Positions 7,542 through 26,551 of a stretch of DNA of 26,863 bases are shown piece after piece; the first letter of the stretch is position 1; the number at the start of each line of letters is the position of its first letter. Where the stretch lies: positions 1 through 26,863 of the IMG/VR virus record IMGVR_UViG_3300021962_007389; one strand, written 5' to 3'. The notes beneath the pieces were generated by a model that saw only the letters and a program-made list of their open reading frames with translations, had not been told where the DNA came from and made no database searches. The translations under genes were made by a program, and so were the position numbers. The stretch comes from a virus.

Positions 7542-8110
7542 TATAAATAAGTATCTATTTCTTCAAGTATTGCTAATAATTCATTTCGCGCGGCTGTTTC
7601 GCCCATTTCTTTTTCATCATTTGAAACTGTTGAAATGTCTTTGCCAAAACGTGCTTCTTGACTTTCCATTATATCAGCCATGCTATCATTCGTATAATTA
7701 ACAGCACTTACAATTCCATTTTCAGTTACTTTTATGCTTTGAAATAACGAACCGCTAAAATTCAAATCTACCTTTTCAGCTTGCCTGCCTGTTAAATTAC
7801 GTAATTCAGCATAGCCTTGTGTTAAATATTTAGTTTTGTGCGGATTGCCATTTTTAAAAACTGTTTGACCGTTTTTACCTTCGGGTTTTATGCCACCTGC
7901 TGAAACAGTTGTTAAACTTAGCGGATTTATATAAAATGGATTAACTGAATATTGACCTATCAAACTTCCACTAGAATCCAAACCATCAAAAAATATCCTT
8001 TGCTTATATTCTGCAATGACTTGAAACGCGGCAACCTGTGAAATTCTACGCGCTGTATTTTCGTTGGCAATAACCTCTGAAAGTATTTTAAGTCTTGCAA
8101 TTGCATTCAT
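7541..8110 (-). CDS. Probable neck/tail completion protein, 189 aa
   Basis: This 189-residue protein carries GYAELRNLTGRQAEKVDLNF followed by SGSLFQSI, a pattern like the 'LTGxLxxSI' centre of HK97-gp10/virion-morphogenesis neck proteins that join head and tail. The N terminus (1-40) is helical. The C terminus has an acidic helix (ARNELLAILEEIDTYL). It lies between two genes with TAATG junctions on both sides, so all three are probably made in fixed ratio. The assignment to head-tail joining rests on this motif and on gene order. Confidence 0.6.
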   Translation of the reverse strand: MNAIARLKILSEVIANENTARRISQVAAFQVIAEYKQRIFFDGLDSSGSLIGQYSVNPFYINPLSLTTVSAGGIKPEGKNGQTVFKNGNPHKTKYLTQGYAELRNLTGRQAEKVDLNFSGSLFQSIKVTENGIVSAVNYTNDSMADIMESQEARFGKDISTVSNDEKEMGETAARNELLAILEEIDTYL

Positions 8111-12287: not shown

Positions 12288-13139
12288 TTATTTTTTCTGA
12301 TAATTAGCCGACCGTACCGGGTATGCGATATGCCTACAATTATAACCGCCGCGATTTTGGCAAAAGTTTTCGGGCGTTGTATTTGGTATCATGCCCGTGC
12401 CTTCATTTTCTGCAAATTTAATTTCTTCCTCTAATTGTTCAAATAAAATTAAGCCTTTCTTACCATTTTTATCATAATTAACCCATTCCTCACATTGCAA
12501 TCGGCTATCCTTTACTAAACTACCAACGTATAATAAAGCATCTAATTTATAGCTTTTGCGCACCGCTTCATTTACTATTCCATCGTATTGTAATAACGCG
12601 TCACGTGATGCCTGCAAACTAATTCGTTTTAATACGCCTTGCCTAGCTTCAGTTGTTGTTAATTGACCTGCTATTGAAGTAACAACATCTGTAAGGCTGC
12701 TACCTTGATTTACTGCAATTAGTAATTCATTTTTTATAGGATTTATAAGATTAGTATTTAAACCTTGCCCTTGCATTGCAGCAACTACATTATTAACAGC
12801 ATAGCGCTTAAATGGATTTAAAAAACTTTTTGTAATATCTAAGCCGTTTAGTTCTTGTTGAGCAAGCTGTGTATTTGCCCCTATTTCATCAAAGTTTTCT
12901 AAAAAACCCGATACCATTACATTATAACCAGCCTTTTCTAAGAACCTATTTATTGCAGTTTTAAATGAACTTAAACGCGCTAAATTATCTTTTGACCTTA
13001 CTAAATTGCCTGATGTTGTTCTAAACTTACCTATCCAATCGACAACTTGTTTCACAAATTTAGGTTCTACTTTATCAAACCGCTTTTGTAAAATTTCAAG
13101 TGCTTTGTCGTTAATTCGTTCGGGTTTGTTGAAGTCCAT
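12288..13139 (-). CDS. MuF-like minor head protein
   Basis: The 283-residue protein has the C-terminal signature of the phage Mu F/SPP1 gp7 minor head family: YVGSLVKDSRLQCEEW (204-219) followed by FCQNRGGYNCRHIAYPV (259-275). This corresponds to the family's DxRT..C and H..CRH/W pattern with conserved Cys and His. MuF-like proteins sit inside the head near the portal, and some are ejected. The helical N-terminal two thirds (about 1-190) precede the motif. The gene follows the portal-like gene with a TAATG junction, the usual portal-MuF order. No toxin domain is attached, unlike MuF polymorphic toxins. Confidence 0.82.
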   Translation of the reverse strand: MDFNKPERINDKALEILQKRFDKVEPKFVKQVVDWIGKFRTTSGNLVRSKDNLARLSSFKTAINRFLEKAGYNVMVSGFLENFDEIGANTQLAQQELNGLDITKSFLNPFKRYAVNNVVAAMQGQGLNTNLINPIKNELLIAVNQGSSLTDVVTSIAGQLTTTEARQGVLKRISLQASRDALLQYDGIVNEAVRKSYKLDALLYVGSLVKDSRLQCEEWVNYDKNGKKGLILFEQLEEEIKFAENEGTGMIPNTTPENFCQNRGGYNCRHIAYPVRSANYQKK

Positions 13140-14869
13140 TATTCAGCATTATTAAACTCATCCATATTAACTTCAGGAATATCAGTACTAGCAACAGCAT
13201 CAAAACGCGGCGCTAACTTTTCATCAATAGCTTCTTTAATAGCTGTATAATCTGAATTCATAATGTCAAAACCCTCATCATAATATAATTCAGTTATTGC
13301 ATCAAAAACAAATTGAGCGCTAATTGCATCCTTTTCTGTTATTTGACCACTTGCCAGCAAATTAACACGTTCTTCAACTGTATAAAGATAAGCGCTGTTA
13401 TACATTGCGCAAATAGTAGCTATTTGGCGTGCAATAGCATCAGCATTGTAACGGCGGTCAATATAGCTAATATAAGATTCATAACGTATTGCAGTTGGTA
13501 AACCTTGCTGTGACATTGCAAATTCAGCCATTAGTTCAGTTTCTGTTTTAAGGTCAAAACTAATAGGCGGATTTACAAAAATAGGACTTTCGGTGTCCAT
13601 AAAAACAATGGCCTGTATAATTTTTAATACATCCTTATATCTTGCATAAACATCATCACTAATTTTACCAACTTCTATATATTCAGGTTCGCGGTCTAAT
13701 TCTTTTGCCACGCCCGATTGTGCAGCTTTTAAACTACGGTTTATATTTAGCACCTGTTCAGCTTTTCCAAGCGCTTCGGTAGCTACTTTGTTTGTTTCCT
13801 GAATAGTACTTACATCAGGACTATAATAACGTATCGGTTCAACTTGTTGTTTATCGCTATCCCCAAATTTTGAAGTTGTAGGATTTAAGTTATAAGCTGC
13901 AAGCGGTGTTATGCTTAACGTTTTACCGTGTCCACTACATGTTTTACATGTTATGCTATTGTCATAATTTGCAGGGTCAGGAATACGACCAACACCATTG
14001 CAACTATTACAATCAACACCCTCAACAAATTTAATAGGAAAACACGTTGCAAGCATAACCGATTTGTGCTGATTATCAAAAATAGCAGCATCATTAAGAT
14101 AAGGTATTGCAGGGCTAAAATCAGACTTATAAATTTTAAACGTATTGCCATAAATATCATATTTAGGAACAACGCGACCGCCCAAAGTAACCCATGGCAT
14201 AATGCCGCTGTTATGTTCGTAAATAACTTCAAACATTGTTTTATCGCCATAGCTTCGTGCCTGTGCATAAAACATGTCAGTAACTATATGATAGTAAAGC
14301 GGATTTTCAATACCTAAGTTAGCATATTTGTTTTTACTTATGCCTTTATATATTAACAGTCGATATTCAGGGTCGTTAAAAATAATTCTATCAGACTGAA
14401 TTACTTTCATATCTACATTAACCCTTACATTATCAGTTTCAATGCCATCGCCTTTTGGCTCAATTAACAAAACCGCGTTTGGGTCAAGTACGCGATTTGG
14501 AATAAATACAGAAAATAAAAATGACTGCAAATTACTTTCGCCGAACTTTTCGTTTTCGGCAAATTGTTGCATGTCCATGTTTTCAAATCTTACAGAATGC
14601 TTTGCAGAACTTAACAACCTATGCAATTCAGTAATAGCCTTAACTAACGGGCTTTCTGTTTTAGGTTGATATGTGTTTTTTCTATAACTTAATATCTGTT
14701 CATCTTCATTTGGAAAAGCCTTATCTAAAGCAGGCGGCACCTCACCATAGAAGTGAGGTTTAATGCTTTCATAAATACGCTTCCAATCCTGTTTAAAAGG
14801 ATGTACGGGCGGATTTAATATTGTAGCATTTACAGAATTAAGAAATTCATTAAACTGTTCTAAGTTCAT
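13139..14869 (-). CDS. Portal protein (probable) with an embedded CxxCxGxG zinc element
   Basis: The 576-residue protein is the best portal candidate: it directly precedes a MuF-like gene and has portal-like length. Its pattern also fits, with an N-terminal region (YRKNTYQPKTESPLVKAI), a central beta-rich core, and a helical C-terminal third with EYIEVGKISDDVYARYKDVL and an acidic end. Residues 287-314 hold CNSCNGVGRI and, 18 residues after its second Cys, CKTCSGHGK: two CxxCxGxG repeats as in the DnaJ zinc-binding domain. This is not a standard portal feature. The portal forms the dodecameric DNA gate of the head. The assignment rests on gene order and size; a search is needed to confirm it. 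Confidence 0.65.
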   Translation of the reverse strand: MNLEQFNEFLNSVNATILNPPVHPFKQDWKRIYESIKPHFYGEVPPALDKAFPNEDEQILSYRKNTYQPKTESPLVKAITELHRLLSSAKHSVRFENMDMQQFAENEKFGESNLQSFLFSVFIPNRVLDPNAVLLIEPKGDGIETDNVRVNVDMKVIQSDRIIFNDPEYRLLIYKGISKNKYANLGIENPLYYHIVTDMFYAQARSYGDKTMFEVIYEHNSGIMPWVTLGGRVVPKYDIYGNTFKIYKSDFSPAIPYLNDAAIFDNQHKSVMLATCFPIKFVEGVDCNSCNGVGRIPDPANYDNSITCKTCSGHGKTLSITPLAAYNLNPTTSKFGDSDKQQVEPIRYYSPDVSTIQETNKVATEALGKAEQVLNINRSLKAAQSGVAKELDREPEYIEVGKISDDVYARYKDVLKIIQAIVFMDTESPIFVNPPISFDLKTETELMAEFAMSQQGLPTAIRYESYISYIDRRYNADAIARQIATICAMYNSAYLYTVEERVNLLASGQITEKDAISAQFVFDAITELYYDEGFDIMNSDYTAIKEAIDEKLAPRFDAVASTDIPEVNMDEFNNAE

Positions 14870-25379: not shown

Positions 25380-25410
25380 TTTTGGAATTTAGAAAATAGA
25401 TGTAACTTTG
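25380..25410 (+). promoter_or_regulatory. Near-consensus Bacteroidota promoter for the rightward operon
   Basis: TTTTG at 25380-25384 (the -33 element) is followed after 18 bases by TAACTTTG at 25403-25410 (the -7 consensus TAnnTTTG). The predicted start of transcription is near 25416, about 45 bases before the ATG at 25461. This is the best promoter match in the window and should be read by the host's main sigma factor early in infection. Confidence 0.75.
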
Positions 25411-25460: not shown

Positions 25461-25679
25461 ATGACAACTTTAGAATTTAAATCAATGACAAAAGAACAAC
25501 AACTTGCTTTTCTTAATCCTTTAATTGAATACGGTATGAATTCAATGTTAGTAGGAACATTAAAAAAGAATATTGTTAGACATTGGTTAAATAAAGGTTT
25601 ACCAATTGAAACAGCTGAAAACCTTGCAGAACTTTCAGAATCAAAAGCTCAAGAATTCAAAAAAAATAAACTTAAATAA
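25461..25679 (+). CDS. Unknown small helical protein, 72 aa, first gene of the rightward operon
   Basis: The 72-residue product is helical and basic at its C terminus. It has two halves, MTKEQQLAFLNPLIEYGMNS and KNIVRHWLNKGLPIETAENL, the latter with a helix-turn-helix-like spacing, then ESKAQEFKKNKLK. It is the first gene after the strongest promoter in the window, so it is probably an early, well-expressed protein. Function is unknown; early phage proteins of this size are often inhibitors of host processes, but nothing here proves that. Confidence 0.68.
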   Translation: MTTLEFKSMTKEQQLAFLNPLIEYGMNSMLVGTLKKNIVRHWLNKGLPIETAENLAELSESKAQEFKKNKLK

Positions 25680-25741: not shown

Positions 25742-26551
25742 ATGAAACAAACAAAAGTTTATCATGAACTTGTGCAAAAAATGCGCACATTCTTTTTACA
25801 ACGTGGCTTTTTAGAAGTTCCAACACAATCGCGTTTATCAATATTAGCAGCCTGTGAAAATCCGCACAGCATTACAACTTTTAATTATTCAGGTGAAGTT
25901 TGGCCACTACCACAAACAGGGCAAATGTGGCTAGAATATGAATTACTTAACAATCCTGGCTGGGATGGTGTTTTTTGTATCAGCACATCATATAGACAAG
26001 AAAAAAATCCTATTGCAGGCAGACATGAACTTATATTCCCAATGTTTGAATTTGAATCTAAGGGAACTATGGATGATATGTTAGAACTTGAAGCTGAATT
26101 ATTAGATTATTTAGGTTTTCCACGCGTTTACCATGTAGATTATGAAAGCATGGCATATAGATACGATACTGAAATATTAGAAGATGAACACGAATTTTTG
26201 ATGTGGCAGGATTACGGTGCTGTAATATCACTTGAAAACTTTCCTTATCGTACTAATCCATTTTGGAATATGAAACATAAAGCAGCTGATATTTATGCAA
26301 AAACAGATGTTATATTATACGGTCAGGAAACAATCGGAAGTGCTGAAAGGTCCTGCGATGCAATTAAAATGGCTAATAATTTTTATACAATTGAAAACGG
26401 TAAATATGCTGATAAGTTATTTGAATTGTTTGGCAAAGAACGTGTTGAAGCTGAATTAAAACAGTTTTTAGAACATGATTTTTTTCCACGTTTTGGCGGT
26501 GGCATAGGTATGACACGTTTAGCACGCGCATATAATTTACTAAATTCTTAA
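25742..26551 (+). CDS. Class II aminoacyl-tRNA-synthetase-like enzyme, free-standing AsnRS/AS-AR-like catalytic core
   Basis: The 269-residue protein is a class IIb synthetase catalytic core (Asp/Asn/Lys group). Motif 1 is MRTFFLQRGFLEVPTQSRL (14-32), but the usual TP is TQ. Motif 2 is YRQE (84-87; Arg85, Glu87) followed by RHELIFPMFEFE (94-105). Motif 3 is FGGGIGMTRL (251-260) with Arg259. YGQETIGSAERS (193-204) resembles the AsnRS segment GEIIGGSQRE. The N-terminal OB fold that binds the anticodon is absent. The best-known enzyme of this shape is the archaeal AsnRS-derived asparagine synthetase (AS-AR), which makes Asn from Asp with ATP. A tRNA-independent amino acid ligase is an alternative. 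The ATP-binding arginines are kept, so it is probably active. Substrate is unknown. Confidence 0.82.
   Translation: MKQTKVYHELVQKMRTFFLQRGFLEVPTQSRLSILAACENPHSITTFNYSGEVWPLPQTGQMWLEYELLNNPGWDGVFCISTSYRQEKNPIAGRHELIFPMFEFESKGTMDDMLELEAELLDYLGFPRVYHVDYESMAYRYDTEILEDEHEFLMWQDYGAVISLENFPYRTNPFWNMKHKAADIYAKTDVILYGQETIGSAERSCDAIKMANNFYTIENGKYADKLFELFGKERVEAELKQFLEHDFFPRFGGGIGMTRLARAYNLLNS

Follow-up and report, generated by a model that had tools for sequence, protein, structure and literature searches.

The window, i.e. the whole stretch of viral DNA analysed here (26,863 nucleotides), contains a gene for a stand-alone catalytic core related to AsnRS. Somewhat more likely than not, its product is an auxiliary metabolic enzyme serving de novo pyrimidine synthesis and not a tRNA synthetase. 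For the family as a whole, gene neighbourhood and genome content make a role in forming dihydroorotate (DHO) likely, while the chances that the exact reaction is Asn + HCO3-/CO2 + ATP -> DHO are about even. The pyrimidine link is the strongest signal of the analysis. A role outside ordinary tRNA charging, as suggested in the first-pass annotation of this DNA, is probable. The family is uncharacterised so far, and its entry PHROG 29758 is labelled "unknown function".

Identity and fold of the window protein

The gene is an intact open reading frame with an ATG start and encodes 269 amino acids. The following features were assigned to it:

25742..26551, + strand: stand-alone AsnRS-like class II synthetase core, proposed dihydroorotate-forming enzyme (domain matches, alignment, predicted fold)
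25826..25864, + strand: family signature Q29-S-R31-L-S-I-L-A-A-C38-E39-N-P41, replacing the motif 1 proline region (35-member alignment)
25916..25936, + strand: T59-G-Q-M-W-L-E65, aligning with AsnRS S-S-Q-L-Y-L-E (phmmer and profile alignments)
25991..26050, + strand: motif 2, Y84-R85-Q-E87 ... G93-R94-H95 ... F99 ... E103 (35-member alignment)
26318..26353, + strand: Y-G-Q-E196-T-I-G-S-A-E-R203-S, aligning with AsnRS GE(I/L)VGGS-R (alignments)
26495..26518, + strand: motif 3, G252-G-G254-I-G256-M-T-R259, with T where an acidic residue is usual (alignment)

The protein matches Pfam PF00152 (class II tRNA synthetases D, K and N; 1.7e-13, 50.8 bits at a cut-off of 25) and PHROG 29758 (1e-93). 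Profile searches against AsnRS, AspRS, LysRS, EpmA and AS-A, which the first-pass annotation had recommended, placed AsnRS closest, with all curated models below cut-off. The scores were 25.6 vs 414 bits (NF003037) and 17.0 vs 342.6 bits (TIGR00457) for AsnRS, 16 vs 309 bits for AS-A (NF005054) and 19.6 vs 286.9 bits for EpmA (weak match, 5e-4); matches to AspRS and LysRS models were far under the cut-offs as well. A profile of 35 family members likewise had AsnRS as top match (2.8e-13), compared to 3e-4 for AS-A (3p8t).

In the AlphaFold model (pLDDT 92.3, pTM 0.90) the whole chain forms one class II catalytic domain. Among solved structures AsnRS of P. horikoshii with Asn-AMP (1x54, TMq 0.81, 19% identity) comes nearest, followed by AspRS and LysRS, and archaeal AS-A appears at rank 46 (3rex, TMq 0.73). 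No OB-fold or anticodon-binding domain is present in the 269-aa model, and the alignment covers only the catalytic half of AsnRS. An intact AsnRS-like core lacking the anticodon-binding domain, with a changed motif 1 proline, had been described from the sequence at the outset; both alignments and model agree with this description. In place of the class II motif 1 proline the family has the consensus Q-x-R-L-S-I-L-A-A-C-E-x-P, with Q29, R31, S33, I34, A37, C38, E39 and P41 invariant across 35 members.

The same 35 diverse members share R85, E87, G93, R94, H95, F99, P100 and E103 of motif 2 as well as E196, R203 and R259. The ATP-binding arginines are kept in relatives. In an alignment of 37 rows R94 is absent from one divergent jumbo-phage member. 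The very divergent protein of the 484-kb phage LR756508 (L165) has R31 replaced by Q and R94 by W, and its function may differ from that of the rest of the family. In the alignments E87 and R203 fall on the AsnRS residues recognising the Asn side chain, R203 on the Arg that binds its carbonyl, and L64 falls on the Leu found in AsnRS where AspRS has its Asp-binding Lys. The ATP site is intact and the side-chain pocket is AsnRS-like. The family shares with AsnRS (class IIb) the catalytic fold, motifs 2 and 3, the E87/R203 pocket and the Leu at the AspRS Lys position, but differs from it in the missing OB-fold, the QxRLSILAACExP sequence at motif 1, an identity of only about 19-22% and its pyr-operon context.

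Distribution and phylogeny of the family

Relatives are encoded in at least 593 viral stretches among 600 candidates listed, far more than chance would give, and a jumbo-phage query yielded only two additional loci. The cyanophages P-SSM2, P-SSM5 and P-SSM7 carry homologues with about 50% identity, annotated as 'tRNA ligase', and Sullivan et al. 2010 (PMC3037559) give the family no more than the label 'tRNA ligase' T4-GC194. No description of its function was found in the open-access literature searched.

Cellular relatives occur in at least 124 stretches, the best 80 having 53-62% identity to the window protein. They belong to Bacteroidota, Patescibacteria, DPANN archaea, Chlamydiota, Dependentiae, Gammaproteobacteria, Myxococcota, Coatesbacteria and Rickettsiales. 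A tree of 115 proteins places the phage clade of the window as a single group (100/99) within cellular lineages, with the cyanophages as a separate group. The first-pass annotation had regarded the protein as a phage enzyme; instead, the family is widespread in bacteria and archaea, and most likely it is of cellular origin and was acquired by phages at least twice.

Link to pyrimidine synthesis in cellular carriers

In 28 of 80 cellular loci PyrD, PyrE or PyrF is encoded within 4 kb of the AsnRS-like gene (PyrD 16, PyrE 25, PyrF 21), as counted with PyrD/E/F models built from the loci themselves. Sampled neighbours exceeded the NCBIfam cut-offs for PyrE, PyrF, DHO oxidase and phage PyrE; PyrD of locus L209 and DHODH of L237 were weak NCBIfam matches. 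Example operons have the AsnRS-like gene followed by pyrE-pyrF (L172, L202, L206, L219, L220) or by pyrD-pyrE-pyrF (L209). In L191 and L208, where pyr genes are close by, a gene of the argininosuccinate-lyase family lies immediately upstream of the AsnRS-like gene.

Among 50 carrier genomes, PyrB exceeded the cut-off in four and was missing in 46, CarB exceeded it in three and was missing in 47, and PyrC exceeded it in four by TIGR00857 and in none by TIGR00856, absence counts that rest mostly on MAG carriers. PyrB and CarB were present in 14 of 14 controls. PyrE exceeded the cut-off in 20 of the 50 carriers. In 16 of these 20, PyrB, CarB and PyrC were all below cut-off, and ten of the 16 are without even a weak PyrC. 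The 16 include large genomes (G003, 6.9 Mb; G009, 6.0 Mb; G014, 7.4 Mb, the genome of Aureispira sp. CCB-QB1). In the order of G014, comprising 199 genomes, PyrB is missing in 5/5 carriers compared to 5/194 non-carriers (Fisher p = 1e-7).

Canonical PyrB is kept in four carriers, namely the Coatesbacteria G002 and G022 as well as G032 and G046; in G046 the contig bearing the AsnRS-like gene resembles phage. The two Coatesbacteria genomes have two PyrB copies each and also retain PyrC, with no CarB over cut-off. Several Bacteroidota carriers retain a PyrC-like protein below cut-off (200-262 bits), and several DPANN and Patescibacteria carriers are without convincing PyrE. Many patescibacterial loci adjoin Dus, SerRS and DnaX rather than pyr genes. 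In six of them (L195, L200, L205, L210, L212, L223) the order SerRS/FtsQ-like, Dus, AsnRS-like gene, DnaX is conserved; a tRNA-Gln lies downstream in several, and pyr genes are absent in most.

All domains of life are considered to build their pyrimidines from carbamoyl phosphate (PMC13260591, 2026). Since the Thermococcales mostly have no carbamoyl phosphate synthetase and obtain carbamoyl phosphate from arginine, absence of CarB alone is not decisive, and the joint absence of CarB and PyrB is more telling. The AsnRS-like gene combines the two properties to be looked for in a pyrimidine entry enzyme, i.e. linkage to pyrD, pyrE and pyrF, and canonical enzymes that are missing while PyrE is kept.

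Link to pyrimidine synthesis in phages

In 50,697 phage records, PyrE occurs among cyanophage isolates only in P-SSM2, P-SSM5 and P-SSM7, the very three that carry the AsnRS-like gene. Four marine cyanophage contigs (L103, L108, L125, L161) encode PyrE at most two genes away from it, and the phage-like contig L237 has its weak DHODH match downstream of it. Such vicinity is rare in viral contigs: only two of 80 PyrE contigs have the AsnRS-like gene in the flank, and phage pyrE usually sits elsewhere in the genome, away from that gene. The 595-kb phage LR756511 encodes PyrE and DHODH homologues, and an AsnRS-like gene was not detected in it.

In the phage clade of the window the surroundings of the AsnRS-like gene showed no pyr gene, so that we infer the function there from homology and from the Asn-rich leaders described below. 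The window protein may well share the function of the cellular members, because it is 53-62% identical to those sampled and belongs to a clade that branches within pyr-linked cellular ones.

Asn-rich leaders and the surroundings of the window gene

In the phage clade of the window, a terminator is found at most 110 nt upstream of the gene in 41 of 61 distinct loci. The short ORFs ending in or just before it are Asn-rich, e.g. MMNNNRNLNINYKKS or MKNNKPNNK. Asn makes up 22.6% of 22 non-redundant leaders vs 7.3% of 354 control ORFs (z = 9.8; 0/5000 draws), NN pairs are about 12-fold enriched, and Lys is raised, too (16% vs 9%). An earlier comparison with strict controls, comprising just four control ORFs, gave a permutation p of 0.09. 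Many leaders have their stop codon inside the terminator stem. Four leaders were folded; each showed a strong terminator and none a competing antiterminator. Such units, which combine an Asn-codon leader with an intrinsic terminator behind it and lie 40-80 nt ahead of the gene, are found in L007, L009, L010, L033, L038, L056, L058, L064 and others, and are putative peptide-leader attenuators.

In these units a ribosome reaching the leader stop would mask the terminator, so that the gene would be on when Asn-tRNA is plentiful. From the layout of the leaders, expression would thus seem to require charged tRNA-Asn, a sign that fits an enzyme consuming Asn. Together with the AsnRS-like pocket, the Asn-rich leaders suggest asparagine as the substrate. 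In L060 (about 7940-7985) a minihelix-like stem, TACTTC..TTTGG-TTCGACT-CCAAA..GAAGTA, is located just upstream of the gene; it resembles a tRNA acceptor/T-arm and was seen only once.

The leader and terminator element is absent from the window itself and from L005. Two features were detected upstream of the window gene:

25381..25410, + strand: Bacteroidota-type promoter-like match, TTTG-N18-TAACTTTG (pattern scan of the window)
25461..25679, + strand: 72-aa ORF upstream of the synthetase-core gene, not an Asn-rich leader (ORF list)

The 72-aa ORF is probably co-transcribed with the synthetase-core gene. Concerning the strong host-type promoter assumed before, a single pattern match does lie upstream of the gene, but TTTG-N18-TAnnTTTG is no more frequent in the window than by chance (3 matches vs 2.06 expected). 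Elsewhere in the window (13139-14869, - strand) a probable portal protein contains an inserted CxxCxGxG zinc-finger-like motif with weak DnaJ/Anti-TRAP matches.

Proposed reaction

We propose that the family replaces CarAB, PyrB and PyrC and would hand dihydroorotate to PyrD, PyrE and PyrF, according to L-asparagine + HCO3-/CO2 + ATP -> L-dihydroorotate + AMP + PPi. Five atoms of the six-membered ring are already present in Asn (alpha-N as N1, C-alpha as C6, C-beta as C5, the amide C as C4 and the amide N as N3). Only C2 is lacking, and it can be supplied by bicarbonate. A single adenylating, Asn-binding enzyme could therefore take the place of CarAB, PyrB and PyrC. The alpha-amino group would be carboxylated first, the class II ATP site would then adenylate the carbamate, and the side-chain amide N would close the ring. 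Dethiobiotin synthetase, whose fold is unrelated to that of the window family, offers a comparable case, in which ATP activates an N-carbamate and a second N closes it into a cyclic ureide. The end product would be the same as that of CarAB-PyrB-PyrC, but those proteins are unrelated, and the canonical route needs carbamoyl phosphate whereas the proposed one would not.

To our knowledge, an asparagine shortcut into pyrimidine synthesis is part of no textbook pathway. AsnB is absent in five of the 16 key genomes, so that Asn would have to be imported there. Taken as a whole, the proposal that an AsnRS-derived enzyme of phages, bacteria and archaea makes DHO from Asn independently of carbamoyl phosphate, and that phages tune it via Asn-codon leaders or pair it with a class II tRNA-Asn, may equally well prove right or wrong.

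Cyanophage tRNA-Asn and alternative explanations

In the cyanophage members a tRNA with a long variable arm and the anticodon GUU starts 7-13 nt 3' of the gene wherever there is room:

L002, 10784-10870; L003, L004 and L085-L164, downstream of the gene; L237, 4316-4406: tRNA-Asn(GUU) with long variable arm

These tRNAs are 83-98 nt long and have an invariant U37, U1-A72 and G73, and 16 of 20 predicted pairs covary with none broken. Position 37 of tRNAs is normally a purine; U1-A72 together with G73 is an Asn-type acceptor end. The long-arm tRNA was never seen without the AsnRS-like gene (97 lie next to it, 16 sit at the end of a contig and 2 are slightly farther off). ARAGORN misread or missed some of these tRNAs (L134, L138, L158, L160, L164).

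This linkage favours a tRNA role in the cyanophage lineage and is not explained by the pyrimidine reading. The family might accordingly be a minimal AsnRS, which loads Asn onto tRNA by recognising the acceptor end alone, possibly on a dedicated phage tRNA-Asn. AsnRS is also the nearest relative by profile and fold, and Asn-rich leaders would suit any function of Asn or tRNA-Asn. Still, we consider a minimal AsnRS unlikely. Neither tRNA nor tRNA-like RNA was found beside the window gene (ARAGORN, Rfam). No such tRNA accompanies the gene in the further Bacteroidota-type phages that were checked or in cellular members, the phage-like contig L237 excepted. Moreover, carriers usually have AsnRS (20/50 over cut-off) or GatB (35/50), and the pyr operons and the loss of PyrB, CarB and PyrC would be left unaccounted for. 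An AsnRS/tRNA pair, as the cyanophage tRNA might suggest, is disfavoured by the tRNAs lacking in cellular and Bacteroidota-type phage members and by the pyr data. AsnRS, GatB and AsnB show no complementary pattern among the 50 carriers, which argues against a role as AsnRS as well as against one as asparagine synthetase.

The operon and phylogenetic-profile evidence would equally suit a different step within an alternative route to pyrimidines, for example one that cyclises N-carbamoyl-aspartate with the help of ATP or acts on N-carbamoyl-asparagine. Such a step needs a source of carbamoyl-aspartate, yet PyrB and CarB are missing in most carriers, and the pocket is AsnRS-like rather than AspRS-like, making this improbable.

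An asparagine synthetase of the AS-AR type, activating Asp and using ammonia, had been named as the known precedent. Archaeal AS-AR (3rex, 3p8t) is also a stand-alone AsnRS/AspRS-type core with no anticodon domain (TMq 0.73 to 3rex, profile E 3e-4 to 3p8t), a leader sensing Asn would be in line with it, and bacterial AsnA is an example of the class II synthetase fold in an enzyme acting on a free amino acid. AsnA (PF03590), however, belongs to another Pfam family, which is not among the Pfam matches of the window protein. By profile AS-AR is farther away than AsnRS (3e-4 vs 2.8e-13), and the Leu at the AspRS Lys position is that of AsnRS. In many carriers such an enzyme would fill no gap in Asn supply: about half of the 50 have a strong AsnB match, AsnB and/or AsnA occur in many, and G005, G009, G012 and G014 already possess AsnRS, AsnB and AsnA. 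Furthermore, the pyr operons would be left unaccounted for, and the leader layout, on when Asn is plentiful, has the wrong sign for a synthetase. A role as asparagine synthetase is thus unlikely, and we regard the AS-AR type as quite improbable.

A ligase like EpmA (GenX/PoxA), whose amino acid would go to a protein or to a base of tRNA or DNA, is very improbable. EpmA is a synthetase paralogue of the same fold without anticodon domain, but it is LysRS-like and only weakly matched by the window protein, which is closer to AsnRS than to LysRS/EpmA; there is no recurring EF-P or base-modification neighbour, and the pyr link would again go unexplained. As for the protein or DNA-base conjugation considered at first, no acceptor recurs among the neighbours either. 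Asparagine supply and conjugation are both less likely than a new pyrimidine entry step. Finally, although the protein is shorter than AsnRS, a decayed fragment of a full-length synthetase is refuted by conservation and is practically inconceivable: the family has a length of about 250-305 aa throughout, a mean column identity of 59-74% in its alignments and strong conservation, with catalytic residues that do not vary between bacteria, archaea and phages. Neither such decay nor a loss of the ATP-binding arginines in relatives, the two findings named beforehand as speaking against the annotation, was observed.

Implications of an asparagine route

If the proposed reaction is true, the one-enzyme route from Asn to DHO would revise the view of carbamoyl phosphate as universal pyrimidine precursor, and it would explain the pyrimidine supply of sizeable bacteria without CarB or PyrB, e.g. 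Aureispira. It would also tell what a phage gene of wide occurrence (PHROG 29758) does, and the non-translational synthetase paralogues would gain a new reaction.
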